A stretch of 64,000 bases of DNA from a virus: positions 62,001 to 126,000 of the IMG/VR virus record IMGVR_UViG_3300020187_000009; one strand, 5' to 3'. The notes beneath the pieces are model-generated. The model had not been told where the DNA came from, ran no database searches, and was given only the letters and a program-made list of their open reading frames with translations. Below are positions 27,403 to 62,346 of this stretch, piece by piece. The position numbers were made by a program, and so were the translations under genes. Within the stretch, counting starts at the first letter, position 1. Each line of letters starts with the position of its first letter.

Positions 27403-27403
27403 C

Positions 27404-27571
27404 ATGAATTCAGAGGAATGGAAACATTATGTAGATGTTGGAGAAGTACCATATCATTTCTTTATATCTATGGTAAACACTATTAAAGAAGGAGGCAAAC
27501 TAAATAGCCAACATATTGCAGTATACTCTTCACATGCCCGAATCATCGAATTTTTATTGAAACAAAAATAA
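27404..27571 (+). CDS. Hypothetical protein, 55 aa
   Basis: ATG 27404 (one base after the preceding stop) to TAA 27571: MNSEEWKHYVDVGEVPYHFF and an Ile/His-rich end. Small, unrecognised. Confidence 0.55.
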   Translation: MNSEEWKHYVDVGEVPYHFFISMVNTIKEGGKLNSQHIAVYSSHARIIEFLLKQK

Positions 27572-27611
27572 AAACGTAAATATAAGTTCTATAATACAAA
27601 CAATATAAATT

Positions 27612-27821
27612 ATGGAAAGTATATTTAAAAAATTCTTGCTAGCAATAATAGCACTATCTGCAATATCTCTAATAATGGCATTACCAACACAGTGGTTATG
27701 GAACAATTTTCTACTGAATGCTGTAAATGGAGTTAACCCAATTGGATTCTGGCAAGCGCTGGGAATTAATGTATTGTCTTCAATTCTCTTTAAAGGCTCA
27801 AACAATAATTCTAAAGAATAA
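27612..27821 (+). CDS. Small membrane protein, 69 aa
   Basis: Two hydrophobic segments: FLLAIIALSAISLIMALP (residues ~7-24) and IGFWQALGINVLSSILF near the end. The sequence style (TQWLWNNFL...) resembles short phage membrane proteins of unknown role. Confidence 0.65.
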   Translation: MESIFKKFLLAIIALSAISLIMALPTQWLWNNFLLNAVNGVNPIGFWQALGINVLSSILFKGSNNNSKE

Positions 27822-27824
27822 AAA

Positions 27825-28145
27825 ATGGAAGCAGTATTAATACTTATAATGTCTTCGATTGCTGTTATTTTAGTAGTGTCTTCTATGTCTAACATGTCAA
27901 AAAACACAGTACCTGGACATAAGACTTATAAATTCATAAGTACATCAAGTGAGACATATCTAATCCGTGCAGGATTGCTCTCAGATGCAAAAAAAGAGGC
28001 TAAAAAGATTGAAAAGATGCACAGCGTCGAATGGGATTTAATCGATGAACTAGATGACAACGGAGATAAAATAAGAACTCTTTATAAAAAACCAAAAACA
28101 AAGAAGACACTGAGTTTATCAAATAAACAGGGTAACGTTAGTTAA
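27825..28145 (+). CDS. Membrane-anchored hypothetical protein, 106 aa
   Basis: One N-terminal membrane segment (VLILIMSSIAVILVVSSM) followed by a basic soluble domain with a KKEAKKIEKMHSVEWDLIDE stretch. Function unknown. Confidence 0.65.
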   Translation: MEAVLILIMSSIAVILVVSSMSNMSKNTVPGHKTYKFISTSSETYLIRAGLLSDAKKEAKKIEKMHSVEWDLIDELDDNGDKIRTLYKKPKTKKTLSLSNKQGNVS

Positions 28146-28212
28146 ATTAGATATATAGTATGTGAAATCATGTACGTTCACGCATAACCTCAAAAAAAGC
28201 TAACTAAAAACA

Positions 28213-28398
28213 ATGAAAGAACCTATTTCAGAAGGCAAAATCACAATCGAAGAAAAGCAAATTGCGACGGAGCCTATTGGAATAGAAGAAACGAAAGTTT
28301 ACGAGAAGAAAGCACAATACATCGTAAATCTAGAAGAACTTCTAGACACAACAGGCGAAGATGCACATTGGTATTTCGGAGTAGGTGGTCCAGCTTAA
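28213..28398 (+). CDS. Hypothetical acidic protein, 61 aa
   Basis: Glu/Lys-rich protein with a C-terminal DAHWYFGVGGPA. It has a long leader and a strong terminator immediately after, so it is probably its own transcript end. Not recognised. Confidence 0.6.
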   Translation: MKEPISEGKITIEEKQIATEPIGIEETKVYEKKAQYIVNLEELLDTTGEDAHWYFGVGGPA

Positions 28399-28409
28399 CC
28401 GCGGTATTA

Positions 28410-28438
28410 GGGTATCCCAAATGGGGTACCCTTTTTTT
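28410..28438 (+). terminator. Intrinsic terminator
   Basis: GGGTATCCC (28410-28418) pairs with GGGGTACCC (28423-28431, one G-U), followed by seven T. Confidence 0.9.
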
Positions 28439-28445
28439 ATAAATA
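28438..28445 (+). promoter_or_regulatory. T4-late-like box TATAAATA
   Basis: An exact match to the T4 late consensus, directly after the terminator T-run and 17 bases before ATG 28463 of a capsid-targeted protein. Confidence 0.5.
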
Positions 28446-28462
28446 AATAGAAATAAATTAAA

Positions 28463-29059
28463 ATGAAAAAAGTAAAATTATTTGAAGATTTCATTAGTGA
28501 AGAATCTAGCGGAGATATATTTAATCCAAAGCGTAATAAGAAAGTCAAGTTTGATCATAAGAAACATCCAGAATTAGCGGGTGAATTTTTTGATTTAATA
28601 TCTACAGCGTACTCTGTAATTGGAGGCCATGCTAAAATTAAATCGCCAGAAGATGTATTCGCTGATCCAGAATGGAATTACTGGGAGGGCATCGATATAC
28701 ATGGTGATAATGACTTCGATATTATAATGTTTGGTAAGAAAACAAGATTCGGTATTAAATACTCAGGAGTTGGGCATGATGGAACGCGAGATGCTAAAAG
28801 AAAATACATAGGAGAACGTGGAAAGGAATTAAATAATCTGGGATATTATATTGAAGTTTCAGGTAAACTAGCAGACATCTTAATGGACTCATATGACGTA
28901 CCTGTTGTTTCAGAACATGAAGTAGTTGAAAGTGTATTGGGTAAGAAAGTTAAATGGATTGGTAAAAAAGATGATGGAACTTCAGGTGCTGGCTGGTATT
29001 CAAGAAAGCTTGGAGGTTCTTTACATGATAAAATACTACTAGGAAGACCTAAAGTATAA
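28463..29059 (+). CDS. Predicted capsid-targeted internal protein, 198 aa
   Basis: Starts MKKVKLFEDFISEESSGD, matching the capsid-targeting-like N-terminus of this phage (cut expected after ISEE or ISE). The mature part has an acidic patch and HDGTRDAKRKYIGERGKELN, but no assigned fold. It lies at the head of the internal-protein block with its own late-type box. Confidence 0.6.
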   Translation: MKKVKLFEDFISEESSGDIFNPKRNKKVKFDHKKHPELAGEFFDLISTAYSVIGGHAKIKSPEDVFADPEWNYWEGIDIHGDNDFDIIMFGKKTRFGIKYSGVGHDGTRDAKRKYIGERGKELNNLGYYIEVSGKLADILMDSYDVPVVSEHEVVESVLGKKVKWIGKKDDGTSGAGWYSRKLGGSLHDKILLGRPKV

Positions 29060-34608: not shown

Positions 34609-34821
34609 ATGAAACATACTACAGATTTTAACGAGTTTATTAATGAATCTAAAGAATCAGACGCATTAGCAAAGGGAATTAATAAAGCAATAATTAAAAT
34701 CGACGATTCAATGTCATATGAGGATTTTGCTTTAGCAGTAGGTAAAGTATTAAAAGACGAATACGGGTCTCACAATTACAAGGGATTTATGGAAGTCTTA
34801 CATAAAAAATTAGGAATATAA
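34609..34821 (+). CDS. Predicted capsid-targeted internal protein, 70 aa
   Basis: Starts MKHTTDFNEFINESKESDAL, a diverged capsid-targeting-like sequence (cut after INE). The mature 56 residues are a small helical domain. Its stop shares a base with the next ATG. Confidence 0.6.
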   Translation: MKHTTDFNEFINESKESDALAKGINKAIIKIDDSMSYEDFALAVGKVLKDEYGSHNYKGFMEVLHKKLGI

Positions 34822-36971
34822 TGAAATATATTAAGACAATAGAGGAACGAAGAGAAGATGTTGGTAAATACAACACTGTTAAGAAAGTAATTTCTAAATT
34901 AGGTAGAAGACCATCTGAACAAGATCTTGCAACATTTATTAATAATAACTATTATGATGTTACTGAAGTGGAACGAGGAGAAGACGATCCATCGGCAAAT
35001 GATAAAATAGCAGATTTAGTAGGATTTTACAAGTTTGATATTGATGATTGGGAAATTGCATGGGCTGATGCTCAAAACGAATCAGCAGTTACTGAAGCTA
35101 AGAATACTATTGGTCTAGCGTTTAAAGACGAAGATGATTATAATGGTTTTGTAGAATTTATTAAAGACGAAAAAGGTTCAATTAAAAAAGATTTTGGATG
35201 GGATTCTAAGACTAAGTCATGGGAAGTTATAATGGACGTTAAAGTTCTAGATAACATTTATGGTGAAGGAACTCCTAGTAATAAAGAGTCTGGATGGTAC
35301 GGAGGATTACCTGGTGATTTTAAATCGGTAATAATCGAATCAGTAGTTACTGAAGCTAGATTTAATTATAAAGAAACCGGTCTTAGTGGTCAAAATTTGA
35401 AAGATGTAAAAGACGGAATTACTGGAATTAAGAATGCACTTAAAAGAGGTAATGAATCAGCGGTAATATCAAACTATGATTTAGTGCAACAAAGATTACA
35501 ACAGTATGGTGGACCTAAGGCAAGTGAGTTTCTTAAAAAAATAAAACAACTAGCTGGACTGGATGAATCAGTAGTTACTGAAGGTAAAATGCCAAATAAA
35601 TTCATTGGAAACGATGAAATAGTTTTTCTTAAAACAAAAGATAATTCAAGAGGAGCACACTATAACCTATATTACAAAGGACACGATATTAATCTTGGTG
35701 GTCAATCATTTAAGAGTGAAAAGGATCTAAAGAGTTTTGCAGATAATTATATCCTGTCAATTCAGTGGTATAATAAACTAAAGTATGAAGATGCAAAACC
35801 TTTACCAGAATCTGTAGTTACCGAAGCTAAAGCATATAAGTTAAAAGCTTCTGAATTTGGTTCAAATACATTCTCAGCGGCATATAATGTAAAAGGCGAA
35901 ACTACTTGGAGAGTTCATAGTACTTATGCTATCGATCAAGTATCTGGTGAAAACAACCCAGAAGAAAGAGATGTAGTTTTCTTTGAGGCAATGCCTATTA
36001 ATAATGACATATACATTAAGATCGGTGGAATCAATAATCTTAAAAGAACCAATGGCGCTACAGTAGGTAATAACTTTGGTACTACGATTGAAGAATGGAA
36101 AAAGGATCCAAAAGGAATTGCAAAAGAAGCTTCTGAATTTCTTACTGATGCAGCACACCTTAAATGGATAAACAAAAAAGCAAGAAGTGAAGGTCAAACA
36201 ATTAAATGGGCCTTGAATGACGATTATTCTAGTGTTATTGAAGATCTAGTTAATAAATCATTAGGTCTTAGTGAATCAGGAGTTACTACAATTGATCAGG
36301 ACATAGAAAGGTATAATGTTATTAATAAAAATTCAGGTAAAGTAGTAGACAATAATTTGCCAATACATTTAGCTAAGAAATTTGCTGCAAAAAAGAAAGA
36401 ATGGATTATCCAGAAAGTAGATGGATCGGTAGTTACTGAAGGTAAAACATCAGCAATATATACAGATCCTAAAACAGGAAAGGGATATGATTTACAATAT
36501 GTTTCTGGTAAAAAGAGATGGGAACTTGATGTAATGAAGAAAGATGCTAGCATATACTCTAATGCAATCACTACAATAAAAAGAGGTACTCTTGCTGAAA
36601 TTCAAGAATGGTTAGATGGATATAAAATAGATTCTAGCTGGACTAAAGGTTTAAGTGAATCATTAAGTTTAAAACATGTTCTTAAACTAGATCAATTCTT
36701 GAATGAATCAAAAAGCGATTTTCAAGTTTATCACAATCAATATTCATCTGCAATTGATGAGGTTGAGAAATATGCTAATAAGATGGGTTACGATCTAGAC
36801 AATGGAGAGTATGGAAATGCATACGTTGATGGATTCTTTAAACCAAAAGATGGACAGACTAAGAAAGATACTCTAGCATTATATAAAAACGGTAAAGAAC
36901 AAAAGAAGGCAGTACACGTTCAAATATATGGTATGGGAAATAAATATGAATTAAACATGTACATTAACTAG
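34821..36971 (+). CDS. Predicted internal virion polyprotein, 716 aa
   Basis: The chain is divided by repeated cut-like motifs: ESAVTEA (87-93), ESVVTEA (173-179), ESVVTEG (249-255), ESVVTEA (330-336), a degenerate ESGVTTI (485-491), GSVVTEG (535-541). Near the C-terminus KHVLKLDQFLNES (618-630) is an internal copy of the capsid-targeting N-terminus. Cuts after each Glu would release about seven pieces, mostly 75-95 residues, the size of small globular domains. The pieces are not alike, so this is a string of different proteins rather than a simple repeat. No fold is assigned. Confidence 0.7.
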   Translation: MKYIKTIEERREDVGKYNTVKKVISKLGRRPSEQDLATFINNNYYDVTEVERGEDDPSANDKIADLVGFYKFDIDDWEIAWADAQNESAVTEAKNTIGLAFKDEDDYNGFVEFIKDEKGSIKKDFGWDSKTKSWEVIMDVKVLDNIYGEGTPSNKESGWYGGLPGDFKSVIIESVVTEARFNYKETGLSGQNLKDVKDGITGIKNALKRGNESAVISNYDLVQQRLQQYGGPKASEFLKKIKQLAGLDESVVTEGKMPNKFIGNDEIVFLKTKDNSRGAHYNLYYKGHDINLGGQSFKSEKDLKSFADNYILSIQWYNKLKYEDAKPLPESVVTEAKAYKLKASEFGSNTFSAAYNVKGETTWRVHSTYAIDQVSGENNPEERDVVFFEAMPINNDIYIKIGGINNLKRTNGATVGNNFGTTIEEWKKDPKGIAKEASEFLTDAAHLKWINKKARSEGQTIKWALNDDYSSVIEDLVNKSLGLSESGVTTIDQDIERYNVINKNSGKVVDNNLPIHLAKKFAAKKKEWIIQKVDGSVVTEGKTSAIYTDPKTGKGYDLQYVSGKKRWELDVMKKDASIYSNAITTIKRGTLAEIQEWLDGYKIDSSWTKGLSESLSLKHVLKLDQFLNESKSDFQVYHNQYSSAIDEVEKYANKMGYDLDNGEYGNAYVDGFFKPKDGQTKKDTLALYKNGKEQKKAVHVQIYGMGNKYELNMYIN

Positions 36972-38005: not shown

Positions 38006-39961
38006 ATGGCAAGAAAGACATTACAACAATACGCTATCTTATTTCAACAAAAGGGTATACCAGCATCTATGTATACTGGTATAAATGGACAATGGATGCC
38101 ACTTCTTCCGGGATTATTAGGAAGACCATTGTCGCATGATGAAATGGACTACAATTTAGAACTTTCAGACGAGACAATTAAAAACTATAAAGTAGCTAAT
38201 TTTATTGAATCTACACAGGTTGAAAAGTATCTAAAATTTACAGAAACTAATGGTACATATGAATGGACGTTAGATATTCCAAACGCTGACGGAACTTCTG
38301 GAACTTCTGGAACGTCAGGAGTTGATGGAACTTTTTTTGGGACACATGGAACAAGCGGAACAGACGGAAGCGACGGTGCTGCTGGAAACGACGGTACTGA
38401 TGGAACAAGCGGAACAGACGGTTCTGTCGGTGCTCCCGGATTACCTGGAGAGTTTTTTGGATCAAGTGGAACAAGCGGAACAGATGGTGCACAAGGAGAA
38501 CCGGGAATTGATGGAGCTTTTTTAGGTACTCATGGAACTTCAGGTACTGATGGAGAGCAGGGAGAGCAGGGAGAGCAGGGAGAGCCTGGAAAGCCTGGAG
38601 AGTTTTTTGGATCAAGTGGAACAAGCGGAACAAGCGGAACAGACGGAAGCGACGGTGCTAATGGAACAAGTGGTAAAACAGGAGTTGCAGGTACTTCAGG
38701 TAAAGATGGTACTTCAGGTACTTCAGGAGTTGATGGAACTTTTTTAGGTACTCATGGAACTTCTGGAATTGATGGAACTTCTGGAATTGATGGAACTTCT
38801 GGAATTGATGGAACTTCTGGAGTTGATGGAACTTCTGGAGTTGATGGAACTTCTGGAGTTGATGGAACTTCTGGAGTTGATGGAACTTCTGGAGTTGATG
38901 GAACAAGTGGAATCCTAACAGGCGGCGTAGCATATGGTCAGATGTTTGAAATAAATGGAGCACCAAGACTTCTTGCCCTTAACACGTATGAAGGTTGGAA
39001 TACTGAAACTCTTGGAGAAGTAAGTGAATTAAAGCATGTTGCAGGTACTGGATCTGCAGCTTCAACGTTTGCTCCTAATATTAGGTATGCAGGAGTATAT
39101 CAGATAAATGTTCAATTGTCTTTAGAAGTAGATACTAATAATACAGATGTTTGGTGCGTAATTGAATTAAATGGTCTTCCGATAGCTTCAACTGAAGTTA
39201 GACGCGAGTTTGATTCTGGTAAAATTGGTTCGTTTGGTATAACGGAGCTAGTTGACTTAGCGGTAGGTGATACATTAGGAGTTTACTTTAAAAGAACATC
39301 TCCAGGAGCTGCAGTTAATTTTACTCCTATTAACTTTTCGTTTGACGTAGTTAAGGTTGTTGGTGTAGGAACACCTGGAACTAGCGGAACTAGCGGAGGA
39401 TCTGGATCTCCGGCAGGAGGAACTAGTGGACAAATACTTGAAAAAATAGACAGTATTGACTATAACACACAATGGTCTACCATAAACAAGTTAACGGGAG
39501 TTCCAACTATAATGGTACTTACGGAGCCGCTTGAGGTAACAGGAGATACTGATGTAATATTCGATTCATGGATTGACCATGATAGCCTTGGTAACAACGT
39601 CCGAACCGTACTGAATGGTGGTAACTTTAGAGCCCTTAACCTTATGGAAGCTGGAGAGTACATGATAGAATATTCATTTAAAATTGAAACACCAAGTGGA
39701 ACAGTGCCTACAAATTCTGCAATGCAGCTAAAGGAACTTAATGCGGGCAATGTATTCTCAACTGATCTACACGCTGTATCATCTGACACAAATTCCGACA
39801 TCAGACATGGTAGATTCATTTTTAGGGCAATTGGTGTAGGTAGTTGGCTAGTATACATGAACTTTCAGAAAGATGCAACAGGTATAAATGATGGTGTTAA
39901 CTATGTAATTTCAGAGCTATATCTTACAGCAAGCCATTTTAAACATGGTTTTACTACGTAG
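38006..39961 (+). CDS. Collagen-like tail fibre protein, 651 aa
   Basis: Residues ~1-90 look like a phage fibre attachment part ([14 protein letters not shown]). Residues ~95-310 are a collagen-like region built of Gly-x-y triplets, mostly [11 protein letters not shown] and GVDG. Two globular beta-rich parts follow (~311-455 and ~480-651), joined by another [10 protein letters not shown] linker. The C-terminal part is probably the receptor-binding or trimerising head. The many exposed Ser/Thr residues are candidates for O-glycosylation by the downstream enzymes. Confidence 0.82.
38756..38899 (+). repeat. Eight tandem 18-bp units in the fibre gene
   Basis: Three GGAACTTCTGGAATTGAT units (38756-38809) are followed by five GGAACTTCTGGAGTTGAT units (38810-38899), encoding GTSGID and GTSGVD. 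The near-perfect DNA identity suggests recent expansion and easy length change. Confidence 0.93.
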
Positions 39962-40008
39962 CTGAAACATTCTTAATAATATACATATAATAGTTAAATA
40001 GCTATTGT

Positions 40009-41328
40009 ATGATTAAAACTTTACTTCCTACTGCAATAATATACGGAACTGGGAATAGTGGGTTTTCGCAAATTAAATCGGACGTATATTATGAAGAAAA
40101 CTTACAAGAGCTTGTAAATGTACACAGGCTTGAGTTTTCTAACGAGTCTGATATTAGATACCAAATATCGAAAGTTAATGCTGATTTAATTATAGTTATT
40201 GGAGAAAACTCACAGAGATTAATACAGCAGACACTTGACTATAGGGATACATTAATTAACAATGCAACTATTTTCTATCAAGAGGAGCCACCTCAGAATA
40301 TACTAGCAAATGATATAGTATGTCAATCGACTAATAGCAGTTGCAGAATCAATCAGAGTGTTTTCTGCAATACAGATTTACCATATTTTAGCGCTTTCAC
40401 TGGTACATACAAAACCGAAGAAAGGTTAACGCGGGCATATCAAGGATTGCTTAACCAGACCTATCCAAACTGGGAATGGATAATAGTTGACGACTCTCCT
40501 TTAGACCATAATAAGACATGGGAAATTGCAACGGAAATTGCAAAATCTGATAATCGAGTAAAAATATATCGAATTACTCCATCTAGTGGAGGGAATGTCG
40601 GAGAGGTAAAACATCGGGCAGCGAGTATCTGTAACGGAAATTGGTTATTTGAGCTAGATCATGACGATATGGCAATTTCTACTCTATTTGAAGATTGCGC
40701 ATTGGCTATTAAAAAACACCCAGATTCAGGATTTATTTACACTGATGTCTGTGAGCTTTATGAAAATGGAGAGATGAGAACGTATGGGTTAACCGCTCCT
40801 AATAGAGAATGGTATGGAAATCCTGACAATATGTTTAATTGGGGATATAGCGGACATGATTGGGTAGAGGCTGATGGACAAAGATATTTAACACATTACT
40901 ATCCTGAAATAAATCCAAAAACAATTAGGTTTAATATTGGTATGCCAAATCATGCTCGGCTTTGGAGAAAAGATGTGTATTCTAAAGTTGGAGGTCATAA
41001 TCGACAAGTATCAGTAGCCGATGATTATGAATTAATTGTAAAGACCTTTCTTGAAACGAAGTTTATACATATTCGAAAGATGCTGTATTTACAATTTAAT
41101 AATCATAACTCAACCGTTGATAATAACTCAACTGATATTAATAGAAGGTCTAGACTAATTAAGGATTACTATGATCCATTGATTCATAAAAGAATAGAAG
41201 AACTTGGTAAGCACGATAGCTGCTGGATTGATAAATTAAATAGAGCCGGAAAATTACAAAATGATATGACTGGTGTTTTAATGGGAGATAATGAACAAAT
41301 TTTAAATTATATAGTAGATGAAAAATAA
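40009..41328 (+). CDS. Glycosyltransferase family 2 with extra N-terminal domain, 439 aa
   Basis: Residues ~1-120 form a separate alpha/beta domain (LIVIGENSQRL). From ~128 the GT2 domain reads FSAFTGTYKTEERL, LLNQTYPNWEWIIVDDSPLD and NWLFELDHDDM, where DHDD is the metal-binding D-x-D motif. It transfers a sugar from an NDP donor. It starts 48 bases after the fibre gene and overlaps the next gene by 11 bases. Confidence 0.85.
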   Translation: MIKTLLPTAIIYGTGNSGFSQIKSDVYYEENLQELVNVHRLEFSNESDIRYQISKVNADLIIVIGENSQRLIQQTLDYRDTLINNATIFYQEEPPQNILANDIVCQSTNSSCRINQSVFCNTDLPYFSAFTGTYKTEERLTRAYQGLLNQTYPNWEWIIVDDSPLDHNKTWEIATEIAKSDNRVKIYRITPSSGGNVGEVKHRAASICNGNWLFELDHDDMAISTLFEDCALAIKKHPDSGFIYTDVCELYENGEMRTYGLTAPNREWYGNPDNMFNWGYSGHDWVEADGQRYLTHYYPEINPKTIRFNIGMPNHARLWRKDVYSKVGGHNRQVSVADDYELIVKTFLETKFIHIRKMLYLQFNNHNSTVDNNSTDINRRSRLIKDYYDPLIHKRIEELGKHDSCWIDKLNRAGKLQNDMTGVLMGDNEQILNYIVDEK

Positions 41329-42607
41329 TAAGCATACAATTAATATTGAAGAATGGGACCAGCTTTCAGAAAAGGAGCAAAAGAAAGTTACTAAAATTAT
41401 ATTTACAGGAACTAAAAAAGTAAGTGATGTAAAGGATAGGCCAAGTATGGCTTTTGCTACTATGTGTAAAAATGAGGAACATTGTATAGGTGTTACATTA
41501 GCACATGCCGGTAAGCACTGTGACTATGTAGTAGTAGCTGATAATGGTTCTACCGATGGCACATTTGATGTAGTAAGAAAATTCTTTGATGAATCAGGGT
41601 TGCCTGGTTCATGGCATGTTGATCCTTGGGATGGTTATGCAATTAATAAAACAAAGATGCTATCTTATGTAAAAGATAAAACTGAATACCTTTTACACCT
41701 AGATGCAGATGATCGGGTTTCTGAAGATTTTTATTTTACTAATGAAGACGCTGGTTTTGATTATTACATGATGACAATGTACCGTGGTTTATCTACATGG
41801 AAAGCAACTGTAGTTTATAAAAATGATCTTACTTGGAGATTTTTAGGAACGGCGCATACGATTGTTAAAGCTAATAAAGAAAATCTGACGCAAGGAGATC
41901 TTACCGAAAGAGGTCATTGTAATTGTGATGGTATTGGATCCCGCGCGTTTGATCCAAAAAAATATTGGTATGATGGTGAAAGATTAACAAAACAATTCTG
42001 GGATTGTTTAATAGATGATCCTGATGGTTTATTGACCAGATCTGCATTTTACGCAGGGCAAAGCTATATGGATTACCAAGTAGATGGTTGTACGGAAAAA
42101 GCACTACAGTGGTATAGATTGTTTTTAAGATTTAAAGATACGTGGATTGAAGAGCAGTATGAAGCTCAAATGAGATTAAGTAGAATCTTAATGAGATTAG
42201 ACGATCATGAAAATAGATTTGAAGAAATTAAAAATGAAATGGACAAAGCAATTGATATATTTAGCGATAGGGCAGAAGCTTATTATTTCTTTGGGGAATA
42301 TTGCTGTCAACAAAATAGACATGATTTAGCATATGATTATTTAAAGAAAGCAAAAGAATGCAACTTAGAATATGCTGAAAAAAACTATCAGTTATTTGTT
42401 AATAGAACTGTTTATGGAGTTTATACTAATAATTGGCTTTCTGTTGCGTGCTATTGGACAAATCGAATAGATGAAGGTAAAGGTTACATAAATGAAATTT
42501 TAGAAAATGATGAACATTGCGAAACCTTTAAGGATGTGTTAGATCATTATAAAACCAATCTAGAACATTTTAATAATTTAGAAAAAGAAATATTAAATAA
42601 TGCGTAA
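41318..42607 (+). CDS. Glycosyltransferase family 2 with TPR-like C-terminus, 429 aa
   Basis: The GT2 core (residues ~45-200) shows FATMCKNEEHCIGVTLAH, VVVADNGSTDGTFDVV and YLLHLDADDRVS (D-x-D). The C-terminal 200 residues have tetratricopeptide-like helices (AEAYYFFGEYCCQQNRHDLA, YDYLKKAKEC). The layout resembles SPBc2-like or SunS-like transferases that modify proteins. Together with the adjacent fibre gene this hints at fibre glycosylation. Confidence 0.83.
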   Translation: MKNNKHTINIEEWDQLSEKEQKKVTKIIFTGTKKVSDVKDRPSMAFATMCKNEEHCIGVTLAHAGKHCDYVVVADNGSTDGTFDVVRKFFDESGLPGSWHVDPWDGYAINKTKMLSYVKDKTEYLLHLDADDRVSEDFYFTNEDAGFDYYMMTMYRGLSTWKATVVYKNDLTWRFLGTAHTIVKANKENLTQGDLTERGHCNCDGIGSRAFDPKKYWYDGERLTKQFWDCLIDDPDGLLTRSAFYAGQSYMDYQVDGCTEKALQWYRLFLRFKDTWIEEQYEAQMRLSRILMRLDDHENRFEEIKNEMDKAIDIFSDRAEAYYFFGEYCCQQNRHDLAYDYLKKAKECNLEYAEKNYQLFVNRTVYGVYTNNWLSVACYWTNRIDEGKGYINEILENDEHCETFKDVLDHYKTNLEHFNNLEKEILNNA

Positions 42608-43844
42608 CGTAGATACATTGATTATTGGAGGTGGAATTACTGGATTATCAACAGCTGCGTTCTTAGGAAAAGATTCTGATTACCTAATTCTTGAGGGAGC
42701 TAGCGAATTAGGAGGCTACTGCAAAACCACGAAAAGAAATGGTTTTGTTTGGGATTATAGCGGACATTTCTTTCATTTTAGAAATAATGAAATAAAAAAG
42801 TATATGATGTCAGAAATGGCATGTGAAGTCGTAACCGTTAAAAAAATAACCGATATTGATTACAAAGGTACTGTTATTGATTTTCCATTTCAGTACAATA
42901 TTCACCAATTACCAAAAGAAGATTTCTTAGAATGTTTAAGGGACATGTATCATTTGGGTGATATAGATAATGAAAATTTTAAATCATTTGTTAATTCTAC
43001 ATCAGGTAAATCAATTTCTGAAAAGTTTCTAATACCATACAATGAAAAATTATATGCATGCGATCTTAATAAATTAGATGCGGATGCTATGGGTAGATTC
43101 TTTCCAAAGCCAATTAAGTTTGACGAACTTATGAAAAAAATAACAGTTCCTGACGACTATGAATCATATAATGGAACATTTATTTATCCAGTAGACGGTA
43201 GTTTTGAATTTATTAAATCTATATTAAAAAGAGTAGATGAAAATAAAATATGGTTAAATTCTAAGGCTAATAAAATCGACTCTGATAAAAAAATAGTCTA
43301 TACAGATAATGGAGAAGTTCATTATAATACTTTAATTAGTACTATGCCTTTCAATAAAATATTACCTATGGTTTCAGGTGATTCTACTTCAGAATTATCA
43401 TCAAATAAAGTAGCAGTTTTTAATTTAGGGTTCGATAAAGGTACCGATATAAAAACTCATTGGAGGTATTTTCCAGGTGACGAAATATTTTATCGTATAG
43501 GTTTTTATAATAATATTTTAGGTACTGATAAGTTAAGTTTGTACGTTGAAATCGGCGCACAGAGTGGTGAATTGTTAGAAGAAAAAGTATTATTAGATAA
43601 AATTATAAAGGATCTTAGTAAAGCTGGAGTAATTACAAATCATAATCTAATAGATCATCAATTCATTATTATGGATCCTGCGTATGTTCACATAACAAAA
43701 GAAAGTGAAAAATCATATAAAACATTTTGTAAAAATTTTAATAAAAAAGGAATATATTCTATAGGAAGGTATGGTTCGTGGACTTATTGTTCTATTGAAG
43801 ATAATATAATACAGGCTAGAGAATTAATTAATAATATTACATGA
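42600..43844 (+). CDS. FAD-dependent UDP-galactopyranose mutase-like / amine oxidase-like protein
   Basis: 414 residues. VDTLIIGGGITGLSTAAFLG (residues 4-23) is a dinucleotide-binding motif, followed by ELGGYCKTTKRNGF and YSGHFFHFRN, as in UDP-galactopyranose mutase and related protoporphyrinogen-oxidase-like flavoproteins. It could convert a UDP-sugar ring form for the glycan built by neighbouring enzymes. Overlaps the next gene by four bases. Confidence 0.78.
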   Translation: MRNVDTLIIGGGITGLSTAAFLGKDSDYLILEGASELGGYCKTTKRNGFVWDYSGHFFHFRNNEIKKYMMSEMACEVVTVKKITDIDYKGTVIDFPFQYNIHQLPKEDFLECLRDMYHLGDIDNENFKSFVNSTSGKSISEKFLIPYNEKLYACDLNKLDADAMGRFFPKPIKFDELMKKITVPDDYESYNGTFIYPVDGSFEFIKSILKRVDENKIWLNSKANKIDSDKKIVYTDNGEVHYNTLISTMPFNKILPMVSGDSTSELSSNKVAVFNLGFDKGTDIKTHWRYFPGDEIFYRIGFYNNILGTDKLSLYVEIGAQSGELLEEKVLLDKIIKDLSKAGVITNHNLIDHQFIIMDPAYVHITKESEKSYKTFCKNFNKKGIYSIGRYGSWTYCSIEDNIIQARELINNIT

Positions 43845-44632
43845 AGTCATACTTTTATAAAAACCCAAACGATTGTTCAATGAATTGGGGAGACATAATA
43901 GCTCCCGATATCATATCTCACTTTTCAAAAAGTACTAATATTCAAGAGACTAACGAAAATAATGATTCTCCAAAATTAGTAAGTGTTGGAAGCGTCATGA
44001 ACGCTGTAAAACCAAATGACATGGTTTGGGGTACTGGAATCATAACACCAGGTGTAATAGGAAATGCTGGACTAGCGCGAATCTTTGCAGTTAGAGGACC
44101 TAAAACTAGAGATGAACTATTAAAACATAAGATAGAATGTCCAGAAATATATGGAGATCCAGCACTTTTATATCCACAAATTTATACTCCAGAAAATATA
44201 GAGAAAACACATGAATGGGGAGTAATAGCTCATTATGTTGATAAATATCACCCAGGTGTGATCCAGTTACAAAAGAGAGGATTTAAAGTTATCAATATAT
44301 TAGCTGGTAAAAAGCAATTCGTGGATCAATTACACAGAGTAGAAAAGGTTTTAAGTTCAAGTCTACATGGATTAATAGCAGCAGACGCATATGGAATTCC
44401 TAATGCTAGGATTAGGTTTTCTAATAAAGTAGTAGGTGGAGACTTTAAATTTATGGATTACGCGCTTAGCGTAAATAGAAACGATTGGAGAGCTATTGAT
44501 GGAAATACAGATCAAATACAATATCCGGGTTATAATAGCGTAGAACTTTCTACACAAATTGAATGGGATTCTCAAAAACTATTAGATGCTGCACCATGGG
44601 TCCACAGTGACTATACTGGATTGTTTTATTAA
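43841..44632 (+). CDS. Polysaccharide pyruvyltransferase family protein, 263 aa
   Basis: Begins YFYKNPNDCSMNWGDIIAPD, with SVGSVMNAVKPNDMVWGTGI, VRGPKTRDEL, YGDPALLYP and SSSLHGLIAADAYGIP. These are the markers of the PS_pyruv_trans (CsaB-like) family, which adds pyruvate ketals to sugars. A near relative is fused at the end of the next gene. Confidence 0.85.
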   Translation: MKSYFYKNPNDCSMNWGDIIAPDIISHFSKSTNIQETNENNDSPKLVSVGSVMNAVKPNDMVWGTGIITPGVIGNAGLARIFAVRGPKTRDELLKHKIECPEIYGDPALLYPQIYTPENIEKTHEWGVIAHYVDKYHPGVIQLQKRGFKVINILAGKKQFVDQLHRVEKVLSSSLHGLIAADAYGIPNARIRFSNKVVGGDFKFMDYALSVNRNDWRAIDGNTDQIQYPGYNSVELSTQIEWDSQKLLDAAPWVHSDYTGLFY

Positions 44633-44664
44633 TCAGATAAATAGATTAAAATATAGTTACGAAG

Positions 44665-46746
44665 GTGGCAAGAGCAAATCACACAAGACATTTCGGAGAC
44701 AACTCTGATAAATCTAAAATAATAGAATTACATAAACAGCTTGCAGACAGCAAGTTAGTAGTTGCTACTTTAGGAGAAAGGGTTGCTGATAGAAATGCTG
44801 AAATCAATGATCTGCAAATTAAAATGGCTGCTAATAATGCTGAAATAAAAAAGCTAAGGACCGATCTAGAATCAATAGGTAGTTATAAAGATGCCAGGCT
44901 TAAAGAACTTGAGCTACAGAAGATAAAGGACGATATTTCCATAAAAAAATTACAGGCTGCGCTCCAAAAGAAAAAGACAGAAATCTTGAAAAAACAACAA
45001 GATGTAAAAACGACAACTGTAATTGAAAGTACTCTACCCGAAACACCTAAGAAGATAATAGCTAACAAAATAGCTCTATTTACTTCAATTAATGCAAATT
45101 ACGTAAAATACGCGGTAACAAGTTATGCATCGTACGAGAAACAAAATCCTGGAAAGTTTGATTTCTTTATTATTACTGCAGATAGATTAACAGATGCCGA
45201 AGATGCACTATGCGAAAGAAGTAATATTACTGTAATTTATCAAGACCTAAGTACTGTATTTAAAATTGGAAAAGATTGGCCCTATCCAAGTGAATGTTTT
45301 TGGATCTATAAAGGACCAGAGATATTTAATCAACTTGGTTATAAATATTCAATGAGTGTTGATGTTGATACCTATTGCGTACAACCATTAAACTTGAAGT
45401 GGCTTAACAACATTAAAATGATTGGTGCCGCAGAAAGAAGACAGGGAAGACTCTATCCAAATCAAAAAGTAACGTGCTATGGATTTCTAGAGCAGGTTGG
45501 TAAGGTTTCGGAAATAGAAAAACACTTCAATAGAAAATACAATCGAGAAATACTAGGAGTAAACAGCGGAGTACTATTCTTTAATAACCAATCATGTGTA
45601 GATAATAAGTTCTACGAGGGAATGGTATCCCTATTTAATAAGACTAAACAGCTTGGATATCCAAGAAAGGGTGATGATTCTCTACTAAGCATGTATTTAA
45701 TGCTCATGGATCCTGAATTATTAACCCATGTTGGGCCTGAATGGAACTATTATTATCTATATGAAGAGGACGAACAAAATGATATTCTTCAAACAATAAA
45801 CATCGCACATCTGCATCGACACAAACCATGGGATTTCTCCAGAATCGGGCATATTAGAAACCAAAACATTCTCAAAATACTGGAGAATTGGAAACAACTA
45901 ACATTAGATATGAAACATAAAGAACCCCAACTAGAACAATCAGTATGGTGGTACAGACCCCAGAAAGGATATAACTTTGGAGATGAAATAACTCCATGGC
46001 TAGTACAAAAGATCTTTGGAGTACATCTTAAAAAACCATGTAATCTTAGTGATCCAAATGTAGTACTTGGTGTAGGTTCTATTATGAGATTAGCCAATCC
46101 AAATACAACAGTTTGGGGATCAGGTATCCGTAATATTGATCAAGCTGATTTTGGTCAGGCAAAGGAATGGGTAGCAGTACGTGGAAGATTCTCCCAGAAA
46201 CAAATAGAAAACCTGGGATGGAAATGTCCAAAGGTATTCGGTGATCCTGGAATGCTCTTACCCCTATACTATAATCCCAAACCCCCTAAGAAATATAAGA
46301 TAGGAATTGTACCCCATCTGGTAGACTGGGAACAAATTAACCGAATGTGGGGCAATCTACCCGATGTAAAGATAATTGACCTTAATACAAATGATATCGA
46401 GAGTGTAGTAGATCAAATGATGGAGTGCGAACATATAGCATCGACAAGTCTACATGGTATAATTACAGCAGTAGCATATAAACTACCAGTAGTATGGCTT
46501 AGAGCCTCTGATATGATTAACGGAGACGACATTAAGTTCTACGATTTCTGGTCCTCTATAGACTATACAGTATTTACACGTTGGAACGATCAACCAAACA
46601 GTCATAAACCCCACTTCAACCCAATCCCAATCAATCAAATACAAGATCCACTCCAAATCCAACAACTAACACATCAACACGACCTACAGCAATTTAATAC
46701 TAAACGACTCCTAAAAGCAATACCCCTCAAGATTCAAAGGTCGTAG
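44665..46746 (+). CDS. Fusion: coiled coil, DxD glycosyltransferase and polysaccharide pyruvyltransferase, 693 aa
   Basis: The start is GTG 44665. Residues ~15-125 are a coiled coil. Residues ~138-415 are a GT-A domain (KIALFTSINANYVKYAVTSY, SMSVDVDTYC with D-x-D, NSGVLFFNN). Residues ~430-690 repeat the pyruvyltransferase pattern (YNFGDEITPWLV, GVGSIMRLANPNTTVWGSGI, VRGRFSQKQI, FGDPGMLLP, TSLHGIITAVAYKLPV). It is likely a multi-step glycan enzyme. Toward its 3' end the + strand becomes C-rich, leading into the gene-free region. Confidence 0.82.
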   Translation: MARANHTRHFGDNSDKSKIIELHKQLADSKLVVATLGERVADRNAEINDLQIKMAANNAEIKKLRTDLESIGSYKDARLKELELQKIKDDISIKKLQAALQKKKTEILKKQQDVKTTTVIESTLPETPKKIIANKIALFTSINANYVKYAVTSYASYEKQNPGKFDFFIITADRLTDAEDALCERSNITVIYQDLSTVFKIGKDWPYPSECFWIYKGPEIFNQLGYKYSMSVDVDTYCVQPLNLKWLNNIKMIGAAERRQGRLYPNQKVTCYGFLEQVGKVSEIEKHFNRKYNREILGVNSGVLFFNNQSCVDNKFYEGMVSLFNKTKQLGYPRKGDDSLLSMYLMLMDPELLTHVGPEWNYYYLYEEDEQNDILQTINIAHLHRHKPWDFSRIGHIRNQNILKILENWKQLTLDMKHKEPQLEQSVWWYRPQKGYNFGDEITPWLVQKIFGVHLKKPCNLSDPNVVLGVGSIMRLANPNTTVWGSGIRNIDQADFGQAKEWVAVRGRFSQKQIENLGWKCPKVFGDPGMLLPLYYNPKPPKKYKIGIVPHLVDWEQINRMWGNLPDVKIIDLNTNDIESVVDQMMECEHIASTSLHGIITAVAYKLPVVWLRASDMINGDDIKFYDFWSSIDYTVFTRWNDQPNSHKPHFNPIPINQIQDPLQIQQLTHQHDLQQFNTKRLLKAIPLKIQRS

Positions 46747-47096
46747 GGTCCGCTCGTGGAGGGGAATCCCCCACCCAAAACAACATTAATAATAAAGACC
46801 AAGATAGAGTTAAAGAAGGAGCTAAACAACTAAGTAACAAGGATAATAGAATAAGAATAGTATATAAGATAGAGCTAACCAAACTCCTCCCCATACCCCA
46901 ATACCCCCTAAAAAGATATACAGGAAGATCCAAGCTCACCCAGTCCACCCCCAATACACGCGCGCGTAGGGGCTGCAACCCCCAATGTTCAAAAGTTATC
47001 CATTTGAGCGGGTTACCTATTAAACCCCTCCATCCATACGCACACAGAACGCAGACGGGCCGGAGCCTATTGCCCACATGGTTTGCACCCGTTGCA

Positions 47097-47134
47097 CCGG
47101 AATTAATTGGGATCCAAAAGTATCCAATAACCGG
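47097..47134 (+). ncRNA. Hairpin in the convergent region
   Basis: CCGG (47097-47100) pairs with CCGG (47131-47134), and ATTGGGAT pairs with ATCCAAT inside with one bulge. Candidate structured RNA element; no U-tract. Confidence 0.4.
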
Positions 47135-47281
47135 AGTTACCCTGCTTACCGATCAAAATATTTCATTATCCGGTGATCCAGTAAGTAACCCCAACCCCTC
47201 ACACAGGCCAAAATGGCTTATAGTATACCAATAGGACCACACCAGTGTCAAGGATTGAGCCAAGAGGGTCCAAAACTCTTG

Positions 47282-47367
47282 GTACCCTGCTACAGATTTG
47301 AAACAATTCAACCTGGCTCACTACTAGGGTGAATACCATTCTTTCGTACCCTGCTACAGATTTGAAA
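47282..47367. repeat. Pair of 22-bp direct repeats
   Basis: GTACCCTGCTACAGATTTGA plus AA occurs at 47282-47303 and again at 47346-47367, 64 bases apart. A diverged third copy (GTTACCCTGCTTACCGATCA) starts at 47136. No gene spans them. Possible protein-binding or recombination sites. Confidence 0.8.
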
Positions 47368-47390
47368 TATCCACCTGACTGTGGTGCATA

Positions 47391-47416
47391 GAAAAGGGAG
47401 GACACCACGACCTCCC
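47391..47416 (-). terminator. Second hairpin terminator for leftward transcription
   Basis: GGGAGG (47396-47401) pairs with CCTCCC (47411-47416); on the minus strand it is followed by TTTTC. It backs up the stronger terminator at 47433. Confidence 0.6.
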
Positions 47417-47432
47417 AATTCCTTCTATAATT

Positions 47433-47459
47433 AAAAAGCTGGTTTAAACCTTATCCAGC
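47433..47459 (-). terminator. Intrinsic terminator of the ATPase gene
   Basis: On the minus strand GCTGG, a 12-base loop, CCAGC and TTTTT. It lies 13 bases beyond the stop of the leftward gene at 47472. Confidence 0.82.
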
Positions 47460-47471
47460 AGGTTGTAGTTC

Positions 47472-56078: not shown

Positions 56079-57116
56079 ATGAAAAATATCCAAGATCTTA
56101 AAGGTAAGAAAATAGCAATTGATGATGTAGTCACAACATACAGCCAAAAAAAGGCATCACATAAGAGTGCGTGGTCTTATCTTCTACAGGCTCAATTGAA
56201 ACATCATGGATTAGACGTTGATGTCTTAGATAAATCCGGAAATATACATGATTATGATGTATGGTTAATTGCGATGCCAATGGAGTTTCAAGGAACTTAT
56301 AATCTATTTGGAGGAGCTGGAGACGAACCAGCTGCCAGAATTGCTAGATTCTTAGATTTCAATGGCGATATATTTTGTTTGAATAGAGAAATGCCAGATG
56401 TTGGCGAGTTCGTGAGAAGCAGATCAAAGAGCTGTACTGAAAATTGGAAAGCTCTTGACGATTTAGCAATCAGCGAGAAATGTAAAAACCTAAAAACAAT
56501 AAACCTAAAAACAGATACAGGAACTTTTGTATTAGGAGACAGTCACTCAGTATCGGTAATGCCATTAGGATCTGATATTAGTAGAAACGACGGAAAAACA
56601 TTATTTGGCGCGTTAAAAGAAGGATTTAGTACATATATACCAGAAGGAACAACCCATTTGATATCCTATTTTGGCAATATCGACGTTCGACATCATATGT
56701 GCAGGCAAGCTGATCCAGTAATGTCTATCCGCAGAATTGCAATGGACTATATAGACCATCTTAAATCTCTAGATGTTCCTAATATAACTGTGCATAAATT
56801 ATTACCTATAGAATTTGAAGGTAGAAGAATTCCTAAAACAGGATGGTATAAAAAAGCTCCATTCTTTGGAACAAGAGAAGAAAGAGCAAACCTAGTTAAA
56901 ATATTTAACAGAACTATACAGGATTTAGGAGAATCTGCAGGATTTACAATATTAGGATGGCCTGATCATTGGTATTCTGAAAACCCAGAATCTTTTGCAA
57001 AAAACTATATGGAAAAGCCTGGTTCGGTACATCTAAGTAGAGAATTCTATTATTGGGATTGGAATACTGGAAATAAAAACTCGAACCTCATTCAAAAGAC
57101 AGCCAGCCTGTTTTAG
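56079..57116 (+). CDS. SGNH/GDSL-hydrolase-like protein, 345 aa
   Basis: VLGDSHSVSVMPLGSD (residues ~152-167) carries a GDSH nucleophile block. YFGNIDVRHHMCRQ (near 198-211) fits block III, with Asn as oxyanion residue. GSVHLSREFYYWD near the C-terminus supplies a His. The order resembles SGNH hydrolases (esterases that remove acyl groups, also from glycans). The first 120 residues form a separate alpha/beta domain. A related function, such as glycan deacetylation, is possible. Confidence 0.6.
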   Translation: MKNIQDLKGKKIAIDDVVTTYSQKKASHKSAWSYLLQAQLKHHGLDVDVLDKSGNIHDYDVWLIAMPMEFQGTYNLFGGAGDEPAARIARFLDFNGDIFCLNREMPDVGEFVRSRSKSCTENWKALDDLAISEKCKNLKTINLKTDTGTFVLGDSHSVSVMPLGSDISRNDGKTLFGALKEGFSTYIPEGTTHLISYFGNIDVRHHMCRQADPVMSIRRIAMDYIDHLKSLDVPNITVHKLLPIEFEGRRIPKTGWYKKAPFFGTREERANLVKIFNRTIQDLGESAGFTILGWPDHWYSENPESFAKNYMEKPGSVHLSREFYYWDWNTGNKNSNLIQKTASLF

Positions 57117-57235
57117 CCCCCACCAAACTGTATATATATCACTCAGCACACCTAAAGTGAAAATATTTTTTAATATCTTGAAACTTTTTTAAACTGTGTT
57201 GTATAACTATTATAAACAAAAAATAAAGGTTTAAA

Positions 57236-58414
57236 ATGAAGCAAAAAATTAAAGTTGGGATCATTGGAACAGGAAATTGCGCCAAGTCCCTAGTAGAAGG
57301 AGTTCAGTACTATACTGAAAACAAAGAAGCAACCACCGGTATGATGAAATTCGATATTGGAGGTTATACTGCAGAAGATATCGAATTCGTAGTTGGATTT
57401 GATATCGATGAGAGAAAGGTTAATCTGCCATTAGGCGAAGCACTAAAGCAAAAACCTAACTGTTCTTGGAATATTGTTGAAGATATTAAATCAACAGCAC
57501 CTGTATTTGAAGGTCCTGTAATTGATGGATATGCACAACTAATGGACCGTTACCCAGAATCAAATAGATTTTTAATATCTGAAGAATTAAGAAATTCAAC
57601 TGATATGGGTAGAGTTTCATGGACCTCTAAATTAGAGAGATCTTGGAAAGATTCAATCATTGCGAAATTAAAAGAACTTGAAGTAGAGGTATTAATAAAC
57701 TACTTACCTGTAGGTTCTCAAAAAACTACTGAATTTTGGGCTGAAATCTGCCTAGAAACTGGAATTTCCTTTGTAAACTGTATTCCAGTATTTATTGCTT
57801 CTGACCCAGCATGGGAACAGAGATTTATTGATGCTGGTATTCCAATTATTGGAGATGATATGCGCTCGCAGTTTGGAGCATCGATTCTTTCTCAAATGCT
57901 ACAGGAGCTAGCTTTTGAAAGAGGACACCATGTTAAAGCACACATTCAGCGTAATGTTGGAGGTAACACAGATTTCTTAAACATGGAAGACAAAACAAGA
58001 TTAGCTTCTAAGAAGATTTCTAAAGAAAACGTAATTCGTGCTCAAAATGAAATTCGTGGAATCTCTACAGAGGATTCTTTCTTACATGCTGGGCCATCTG
58101 AATATATTTCATTTTATGGAGATAATAAAGTAGCAAACTTTAGACTTGAAATGGAAGGATTTGGAGGAGCACCTGTATTACTTGATGCTCAATTAAGTGT
58201 TCAAGATTCTCCAAACTCAGCAGGTGTTGTAATTGATGCTTTGCGATACGTAAAAGTAGCTCGTGAAATGGGAATAGTAGGAGCTCTTCGTGGACCATCT
58301 GCATTTACTCAAAAAACACCACCTCAACAAATGATGTTTAGGGATGCTGTTAAAGAATGCGACGCATTAGCAGTTCGTGAATTAACCAATGTAACTAAAA
58401 AGCAACTCAAATAA
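57236..58414 (+). CDS. Myo-inositol-1-phosphate synthase (Ino1-like), 392 aa
   Basis: VGIIGTGNCAKSLVEGVQYY is the NAD-binding turn. VLINYLPVGSQKTTEFWAEI, GDDMRSQFGASILSQMLQEL and HIQRNVGGNTDFLNMED are the hallmarks of archaeal/actinobacterial-type inositol-1-phosphate synthase, which converts glucose-6-phosphate to inositol-1-phosphate. It is a full-length gene with its own AT-rich promoter region (57170-57230) and terminator. An inositol-based glycan or lipid is implied; this is a rare auxiliary gene in phages. Confidence 0.88.
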   Translation: MKQKIKVGIIGTGNCAKSLVEGVQYYTENKEATTGMMKFDIGGYTAEDIEFVVGFDIDERKVNLPLGEALKQKPNCSWNIVEDIKSTAPVFEGPVIDGYAQLMDRYPESNRFLISEELRNSTDMGRVSWTSKLERSWKDSIIAKLKELEVEVLINYLPVGSQKTTEFWAEICLETGISFVNCIPVFIASDPAWEQRFIDAGIPIIGDDMRSQFGASILSQMLQELAFERGHHVKAHIQRNVGGNTDFLNMEDKTRLASKKISKENVIRAQNEIRGISTEDSFLHAGPSEYISFYGDNKVANFRLEMEGFGGAPVLLDAQLSVQDSPNSAGVVIDALRYVKVAREMGIVGALRGPSAFTQKTPPQQMMFRDAVKECDALAVRELTNVTKKQLK

Positions 58415-58433
58415 ACCTTTATTTATAGTTGTT

Positions 58434-58457
58434 AAGGGAGTCTTCGGACTCCCTTTT
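58434..58457 (+). terminator. Intrinsic terminator with TTCG loop
   Basis: AAGGGAGTC (58434-58442), TTCG, GACTCCCTT (58447-58455), then TT. It separates the inositol synthase from the downstream operon. Confidence 0.9.
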
Positions 58458-58485
58458 ATAGATCATAATAATATAATAATAAAAA

Positions 58486-58854
58486 ATGGATATATTTGCA
58501 TACGATTTTGATGGTGTAGTTTCAATCGGAATTACCCCTCGATGGAGTGATGATATCATTATTACAGGAAGATGTCAAGAAGAGGCGCCTTACGTTTTTG
58601 ATAAATTATCAGAGATGGGGGTTACTACTAAAGTTTATTTTAACCAAATGACACTAGCAGAAAGAGGAGACCATACTGTCAATGCTAGAACATACTCAGG
58701 AAAACATAAAGCTAAAACTATAAGTGAATTAGCCGAACAGGGCATTAACGTTGTTAGATTTTTTGAAGACGACCCTGTACAAAAGGCGATTATTGAAGAG
58801 AATCATCCAAACCTAGACGTGGTACATGTAGTATCAAACTTAGTACAAAAATAA
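58486..58854 (+). CDS. HAD-like protein, 122 aa
   Basis: FAYDFDGVVSIG (motif I, D-x-D), IIITGRCQEE (motif II), and VVRFFEDDPVQKAI (acidic motif IV). A minimal HAD fold with a short cap. May be a phosphatase; the substrate is unknown. It starts soon after the inositol synthase terminator. Confidence 0.72.
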   Translation: MDIFAYDFDGVVSIGITPRWSDDIIITGRCQEEAPYVFDKLSEMGVTTKVYFNQMTLAERGDHTVNARTYSGKHKAKTISELAEQGINVVRFFEDDPVQKAIIEENHPNLDVVHVVSNLVQK

Positions 58855-58861
58855 AATAAGA

Positions 58862-59530
58862 ATGCTAGACCCAAAACAAAGATCAATCTTAAAAAAGAGA
58901 TATGTTAAAGAATTAAATGCACAGGAAAGTGTAGATAAAGATATGATTTCAGAATCAATTAAAAACTACATCAAGCCAGAAGTAGATTATCTAAATAAAG
59001 TATGTTTAGATCTAGGTACTAATATAGGAGCTTTTACTAAAATAGCAATAGAAGGAGGAGCAAAGAGAGTGTATGGTATCGAATGCGACTTTAGAAACTA
59101 CAACATAGCTGCTAATAATTTTGCAGCTTCGATTCATGCTAATATAATTCATGCTGCAGTATCTGGATCTACAGAAGATACTCTTAAAATATACAAATCA
59201 AACGCTAAAAGTAACCATAGCTCAACATCTATTATTAAAAGAAGAGGTACCTTTAATGAATATGACGACGTTAAAAATTACCATATTGACCATCTGTTAG
59301 AAGAGATTAAGCCAGATATTATTAAAATTGACATCGAAGGAGCAGAGTATGATATAATAGAAAGCGTGCTCGAATATAAACCAAGTATATTGTTTATTGA
59401 ACTACATGGAAACCATGATCAAGCAAAGTCTGCAGTACAGAGGTTTACCGAAGCTTATAAAACATCAAACATAGAAGAGATCATTATATTTCAAAAAGTT
59501 GGAGGATATGATTGTCTATTTATAGATTAA
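58862..59530 (+). CDS. FkbM-family SAM-dependent methyltransferase, 222 aa
   Basis: VCLDLGTNIGAFTKIAIEGG (residues ~51-70) is the SAM-binding motif I, RVYGIECDFRNYNIAANNF motif II, and DIIKIDIEGAEYDIIESVLE the FkbM D-I-E-G-A-E motif. FkbM enzymes methylate sugars or small molecules. It may methylate the glycan encoded elsewhere in this window or a base precursor. Confidence 0.87.
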   Translation: MLDPKQRSILKKRYVKELNAQESVDKDMISESIKNYIKPEVDYLNKVCLDLGTNIGAFTKIAIEGGAKRVYGIECDFRNYNIAANNFAASIHANIIHAAVSGSTEDTLKIYKSNAKSNHSSTSIIKRRGTFNEYDDVKNYHIDHLLEEIKPDIIKIDIEGAEYDIIESVLEYKPSILFIELHGNHDQAKSAVQRFTEAYKTSNIEEIIIFQKVGGYDCLFID

Positions 59531-59544
59531 AATATTAATATAAT

Positions 59545-61007: not shown

Positions 61008-61032
61008 TACAATAATAAAGTAACACAATAAT

Positions 61033-61820: not shown

Positions 61821-61822
61821 AA

Positions 61823-62340: not shown

Positions 62341-62346
62341 TAAGAA

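Follow-up and report, generated by a model that had tools for sequence, protein, structure and literature searches.

A collagen-like phage fibre gene followed by sugar-enzyme genes: a candidate operon for fibre glycosylation

What are sugar enzymes doing beside a phage fibre gene? The question is raised by an uncultured phage known from a 148,784-bp IMG/VR virus record, of which bases 62001-126000 form the window (64,000 nucleotides). A gene for a collagen-like protein is followed there by five genes that could together build a sugar chain; the product might be meant for the host surface, for the phage DNA, for some other part of the virion, or for the fibre itself. The answer preferred here, in which confidence is about evenly balanced, is that the operon builds a glycan and attaches it to the phage's own collagen-like fibre by direct O-glycosylation.

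The fibre gene and its neighbours

The original prediction placed between 38006 and 46746 a Ser/Thr-rich collagen-like fibre, two GT2 enzymes, a mutase-like flavoprotein, a pyruvyltransferase, and a fusion of a coiled coil with a glycosyltransferase and a second pyruvyltransferase. Six open reading frames (ORFs) lie there, all on the + strand (Table 1), and the family assignments have held: both GT2 enzymes exceed the Pfam cut-off; the flavoprotein matches NAD_binding_8/Amino_oxidase and can be narrowed to a UDP-galactopyranose mutase (UGM) homologue; PS_pyruv_trans (PF04230) is found in the 263-aa protein (35.6 bits) and C-terminally in the 693-aa fusion (39.9 bits; cut-off 25.3), which also carries a GT8 domain. 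The overlaps said to join the genes occur at three junctions (11, 8 and 4 bp); the fibre and GT2-A genes are separated by 47 bp, and 32 bp lie upstream of the fusion gene. The + strand shows no terminator-like site in the interval from fibre to GT2-A, so co-transcription of the fibre with the operon is possible.

Table 1. Genes of the fibre locus and two further genes of the same genome
Feature	Position	Strand	Location	Basis
Collagen-like fibre, 651 aa; proposed acceptor	38006..39961	+	fibre locus	Pfam Collagen 2.3e-24; PHROG; triplet composition
GT2-A glycosyltransferase, 439 aa, extra ~120-aa N-terminal region	40009..41328	+	fibre locus	Pfam Glycos_transf_2 1e-14
GT2-B, 429 aa, GT2 domain and TPR-like C-terminus; proposed priming protein glycosyltransferase	41318..42607	+	fibre locus	Pfam Glycos_transf_2 1.5e-6
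UDP-galactopyranose mutase (UGM) homologue, 414 aa	42600..43844	+	fibre locus	PDB profile, Foldseek, site residues
PF04230 pyruvyltransferase-family enzyme, 263 aa	43841..44632	+	fibre locus	Pfam 1.2e-8 (above cut-off)
Fusion, 693 aa, GTG start: coiled-coil-like N-terminus / GT8 / PF04230	44665..46746	+	fibre locus	PF01501 8.9e-6, PF04230 6e-10
Myo-inositol-1-phosphate synthase	57236-58414		own genome	
5-hmdU DNA kinase domain protein	59545-60597		own genome	

The fibre scores 85.4 bits against the Pfam Collagen model (cut-off 27.2) and contains 63 G-X-Y triplets, counting runs of six or more; Ser or Thr occupies 54% of the X and 35% of the Y positions, and Gly-Thr-Ser/Gly-X-Asp repeats extend over approximately residues 90-310. 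These repeats largely account for its PHROG tail-fibre matches, and a PDB sequence search with the C-terminus gave no match. A precedent is BclA of Bacillus, a glycosylated collagen-like protein; B. anthracis also has a prolyl 4-hydroxylase (PMC8968730). The phage fibre has the Thr/Ser-rich G-X-Y region of the BclA-type proteins, in which such collagen carries glycans; for the phage fibre, glycan attachment is predicted. It differs from them in being a phage fibre, linked to a donor-making UGM, a GT2 pair and PF04230 domains.

A probable T4 gp23-like capsid protein elsewhere in the record matches more than 1,400 phages, mainly T4-like; the best matches are the Prevotella Lak phages and a metagenomic phage of 462 kb. 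Of 57 long ORFs, 3 have a Shine-Dalgarno-like motif in front, compared with 12% of random positions (the ORF starts are mechanical); this low frequency would fit a Bacteroidota host.

The sugar enzymes

The flavoprotein is a UGM homologue by profile, by modelled fold and by its contact residues. With a profile of 12 sequences, a PDB search reaches UGMs of fungi and trypanosomes at about 1e-32 (fungal 4e-32), and bacterial UGMs at about 1e-5. The AlphaFold model, of a pLDDT of only 68.9, matches Aspergillus fumigatus UGM (Foldseek 1.4e-26, TMq 0.82). Residues contacting substrate and flavin were matched by eye in alignments: H56, Q98, N191, Y290 and R299 are invariant and align with A. fumigatus H63, Q107, N207, Y317 and R327; R166, also invariant, aligns with the equivalent Arg of Trypanosoma cruzi UGM, one residue off A. 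fumigatus R182; where A. fumigatus has F66 and Y104, the phage protein has H59 and F95. Since the protein is a UGM homologue, UDP-galactofuranose is the predicted donor.

The two GT2 enzymes point in different directions. A GT2-A profile finds chondroitin synthase domains nearest in the PDB (2e-17); that these solved relatives make polysaccharides counts against a fibre target. The GT2-B profile finds TPR proteins over its C-terminal region, and its nearest solved glycosyltransferases are the protein glycosyltransferases GmaR (1.2e-9) and SunS (4e-6). GmaR acts on flagellin and SunS on a peptide. With a GT2 domain related to theirs and a TPR region, GT2-B is predicted to transfer sugar to protein side chains.

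The last two genes supply the pyruvyltransferase-family domains. In the fusion, GT8 covers approximately residues 126-418 and PF04230 432-693; the coiled-coil-like N-terminus rests on many weak coiled-coil family matches. Scanned alone, the GT8 domain is marginal (25.9 bits, cut-off 24.3); the motifs DVDTYC (the DxD motif of GT8), GVNSGVLFFN and HLHRHKPW are present, and a PDB sequence search with this domain gave no match. CsaB binds phosphoenolpyruvate (PEP) with R148, H308 and K328 (PMC10435577). Both phage domains retain the equivalent Arg, His and Lys, the Lys position being matched by eye; in 26 phage homologues of the 263-aa enzyme R85 and H176 are invariant and K203 nearly so. The phage enzymes thus share with the ketal pyruvyltransferases CsaB and Pvg1p both the family and the PEP-site residues; they differ in that CsaB R306 aligns with Ser, and that one copy is fused to GT8. 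The model of the stand-alone enzyme is confident (pLDDT 91.5) and GT-B-like; it resembles Pvg1p (Foldseek 9.3e-3, VIA-align Z 11.4) slightly less than UDP-sugar 2-epimerases (Z up to 13.2), and a PDB search with the pyruvyltransferase profile gave a chance match only. The assignment is therefore carried by family and motifs, not by fold: the two domains belong to the PF04230 ketal pyruvyltransferase family, and their donor, acceptor and activity are predicted.

The activities, sugar identities and order of steps that we infer from these families run as follows. The whole process would take place in the cytoplasm. UGM would convert UDP-galactopyranose to UDP-galactofuranose; GT2-B would prime Ser and Thr in the repeats (Gly-Thr-Ser and Gly-Thr-Asp); further sugars would come from GT2-A and the GT8 domain, with galactofuranose probably used by one of the two; finally, pyruvate ketals placed by the two PF04230 domains would make the glycan negatively charged. 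The fibre would be likely to gain in hydration, stiffness and resistance to proteases, and recognition would be altered.

A recurrent cassette in other phages

The GT2-A, GT2-B and UGM genes form a recurrent phage cassette, new here, that often has collagen-like fibre genes on one side and tail-sheath genes on the other. Viral contigs queried with UGM yielded 38 loci (numbered L); 18 of these, on other metagenomic phage contigs, have the complete trio, and about 13 more have GT2-B and UGM, with matching short overlaps in most. The order GT2-A, GT2-B, UGM persists in other phage lineages at ~50-92% protein identity. As order and short overlaps recur in this way, the arrangement is more than chance, and a purely incidental glycosyltransferase cluster can be ruled out. 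Neither GT2-A nor GT2-B was found at E <1e-20 around any of 80 bacterial UGM loci. A tree of 61 UGMs unites 20 of the 21 sequences from phages in a single group, which also includes one sequence from a bacterial bin; an annotated phage collection holds relatives in only two gut metagenomic records, the best ~50% identical. The phages Atu_ph04 and DSL-LC01 also encode UGM, but the available parts of those reports present it among cell-wall metabolism genes, with neither a GT2 cassette nor a fibre link (PMC6630229, PMC10611076).

The surroundings of the core vary. A DUF6445 protein precedes GT2-A in L014, L018-L020, L022-L024, L077-L079, L081-L082, L086-L088 and L090; in loci of this type the genes after UGM are commonly of GT4/GT9 or tail-sheath type, and several loci have a collagen-like gene upstream. 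Counted as 90% identity clusters, and with the window included, the UGM lineages whose captured stretch includes an upstream collagen-like gene number six; in several lineages the core adjoins tail-sheath genes. The Phage_sheath_1 profile found no match in the window's own genome; a 966-aa sheath-like protein at 103-3003 of L007 was recognised by eye only. Of the 18 cassette contigs, 14 have a Collagen match above the Pfam cut-off; of 18 control phage contigs, chosen as having PF04230 and no cassette, 3 have one (Fisher p 3e-4, with contigs that are not independent and controls that are not lineage-matched); among contigs of at least 80 kb, likewise not independent, p is 0.009. This supports, but does not prove, a link between cassette and collagen. 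On the other side of the account, the core lies away from fibres in L011-L013 and L015-L017.

Some relatives add an oxygenase that resembles HIF prolyl hydroxylases. In L014, L079, L081, L082, L086 and L088 a PF13640-type 2-oxoglutarate oxygenase forms one fusion protein with GT2-B, and in L011 such an oxygenase lies between GT2-B and UGM; the L014 domain has the HIF prolyl hydroxylases as its nearest PDB relatives (1.3e-5). A search for a PF13640 oxygenase in the record that holds the window was negative, which counts against the preferred reading.

The pyruvyltransferases are a local addition, outside the conserved core: PF04230 was not found in any of the other 18 contigs with the cassette, and a search for related loci with the 693-aa fusion as sole query found none, relatives surfacing through the UGM and PF04230 queries. 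The family is common in other phages (43 loci, often adjoining or fused to glycosyltransferases), so that a phage PF04230 enzyme is not new in itself: in L048 and L052 a GT8 gene precedes a pair of PF04230 genes, in the company of NeuB and cytidylyltransferase-like genes, and L044 encodes a 1,914-aa GT4/GT9-PF04230 fusion. What stands out here is the joining of PF04230 to the UGM cassette and a fibre.

The acceptor of the glycan

The strongest competing perspective supposes that the enzymes remodel the host surface: lipopolysaccharide, capsule or a surface glycoprotein would gain galactofuranose and pyruvate, masking receptors and excluding other phages. Both UGM and PF04230 enzymes typically belong to polysaccharide pathways of bacteria, and related PF04230 genes in other phages adjoin NeuB, cytidylyltransferase or DAHP/Kdo-8-P-synthase-family genes. 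This is also the customary reading of phage glycosyltransferases beside fibre genes: in T4-like pelagimyophages and jumbo phages, which share that arrangement with the present locus, the available portions of the reports speak of O-antigen or capsule modification, but mention neither a UGM/GT2 cassette nor pyruvyltransferases (PMC7029224, PMC7824862). Nevertheless host remodelling seems rather unlikely here. Capsule or O-antigen assembly calls for membrane priming, flipping or polymerising enzymes in the locus; yet no operon protein has a hydrophobic segment of membrane type, and a family scan of the operon genes found no flippase, polymerase or lipid-carrier priming enzyme. The kinship of GT2-B with protein glycosyltransferases and the synteny with fibre and sheath genes likewise speak against it.

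A second alternative, that the glycosyltransferases protect the phage DNA against restriction by acting on its hydroxymethylated bases, is improbable. It draws on a cluster in the phage's own genome (at 56-63 kb: a 5-hmdU kinase domain, myo-inositol-1-phosphate synthase, thymidylate synthase, of which the genome has two homologues, and an FkbM methyltransferase), and on L012 and L013, where the cassette lies between thymidylate synthase and NTP-pyrophosphohydrolase homologues. In the window, however, the cassette is next to the fibre and at least 10 kb from the kinase cluster; the kinase domain, the one family searched for, gave no match in the 18 other cassette contigs, which are fragments, whereas the same search is positive in the window's record; and the kin of GT2-B act on protein.

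Slightly less probable still is a target elsewhere in the virion (other collagen-like fibres, or the capsid), with an incidental fibre neighbour: the record does hold three further collagen-like genes at 135-149 kb and an extra GT2 gene directly 3' of the probable gp23-like capsid gene, and L011, with a 92% identical UGM, encodes collagen elsewhere on its contig and none on the captured stretch, but same-strand adjacency in the window and collagen synteny in other lineages oppose it.

Glycosylation of the adjacent fibre is favoured because the core is syntenic with collagen-like fibre and tail-sheath genes, GT2-B is fused in relatives to a prolyl-hydroxylase-like oxygenase, its kin modify proteins, and no membrane or lipid-carrier step is evident; same-strand adjacency with short overlaps, the UGM identity and the glycosylated bacterial collagens lend further support. 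Mycobacteriophages provide a parallel in which phage genes glycosylate the phage's own structural proteins, as is proposed here (Freeman et al. 2023, as cited in PMC12619734); in what is available of that account the targets are capsid and tail tube, established by experiment, whereas here other enzymes would modify a collagen-like fibre. The original prediction had left the choice between a fibre with pyruvylated sugars and a remodelled host capsule; the comparative evidence leans to a glycosylated fibre, and its pyruvylation, which rests on family membership and PEP-site residues in genes outside the core, is plausible.

A wider proposal is advanced tentatively, as more doubtful than fibre glycosylation itself: that large uncultured phages carry a mobile, phage-specific collagen-processing system, with an oxygenase in several lineages, a GT2-TPR primer, a GT2 extender and a UGM that together place galactofuranose on the fibre, here capped by GT8 and pyruvyltransferase. 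Such a system would mirror, in viruses, the hydroxylation and glycosylation of collagen, and the phage fibre would bear a glycan of galactofuranose and pyruvate.

If the fibre is indeed the acceptor, phages possess sugar enzymes, and in relatives a hydroxylase, dedicated to decorating their own collagens; compact enzymes for glycosylated recombinant collagens would then be on offer. Some fibre-adjacent phage glycosyltransferases, usually read as modifiers of the host surface, would instead be virion-modifying enzymes, with consequences for how receptor binding, host range and immune recognition are predicted.

Apparent mobility of the cassette, and its surroundings

The closest relative of the UDP-galactopyranose mutase homologue (UGM) in the window, at 92%, lies in L011 (5184-16369), a stretch that also encodes a ClpA/ClpB-like ATPase and ClpP, 2OG oxygenases, a DUF6445 protein, a GT2-methyltransferase fusion and UvdE. 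So near a relative in this setting suggests a recent move of the GT2-A/GT2-B/UGM cassette. In the UGM tree, the only bacterial-bin member of the phage clade is L095, from a Chitinophaga MAG contig; a prophage, a phage contig placed in the wrong bin and a bacterial donor are all candidate explanations. Directly after the operon, about 720 bases (window 46747-47470) hold no convincing gene; they contain two 25-base direct repeats, at 47279 and 47343, 64 bases apart.

Features of the record and of other phage loci
Source	Position	Feature
Window	16786-20540	959-aa protein, GT4 and GT9 (heptosyltransferase) domains, then NDP-sugar epimerase
Window	34821-36971	716-aa protein
Window	57236	Myo-inositol-1-phosphate synthase
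Window	58862	FkbM methyltransferase
Window	59545	5-hmdU DNA kinase helical domain
Window	61033	NTP-pyrophosphohydrolase-like protein
Window	62347	Thymidylate synthase
Window	63373	DprA-like protein
L009 (129 kb of record)	3333-4172	Divergent second thymidylate synthase homologue
L006 (record 26879-29021)	6879-9021	GT2 gene immediately 3' of probable gp23-like major capsid gene
L048	4290-10631	Cytidylyltransferase-like, GT8, two PF04230 genes, NeuB; structural genes nearby
L052	4792-10395	As L048
L044	5250-10994	Single 1,914-aa protein, GT4/GT9-like and PF04230 parts

Other glycan genes

The 959-aa GT4/GT9 protein has a sub-threshold TibC-like match, and its gene precedes that of the epimerase; homologues adjoin the cassette in L018, L019, L077-L082, L088 and L090. 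Elsewhere in the record, the position of a GT2 gene directly downstream of the probable capsid gene makes glycosylation of the capsid conceivable. Among the phage PF04230 loci, the cluster shared by L048 and L052 possibly specifies a nonulosonic acid glycan, on host or virion; the giant protein of L044 has a 1,475-aa counterpart in L045.

Possible protease sites and DNA modification

Upstream of the fibre, the 716-aa protein repeats the motif ES[AV]VTE[AG] between its segments, and proteins nearby begin MK..K.FE.F.NE; by its sequence it looks like a polyprotein or a set of prohead-protease sites. At the other end of the window, 56079-63999, together with the L009 gene, may constitute a cluster for DNA hypermodification, in which a 5-hmdU kinase with an inositol-phosphate synthase as neighbour is an unusual pairing.
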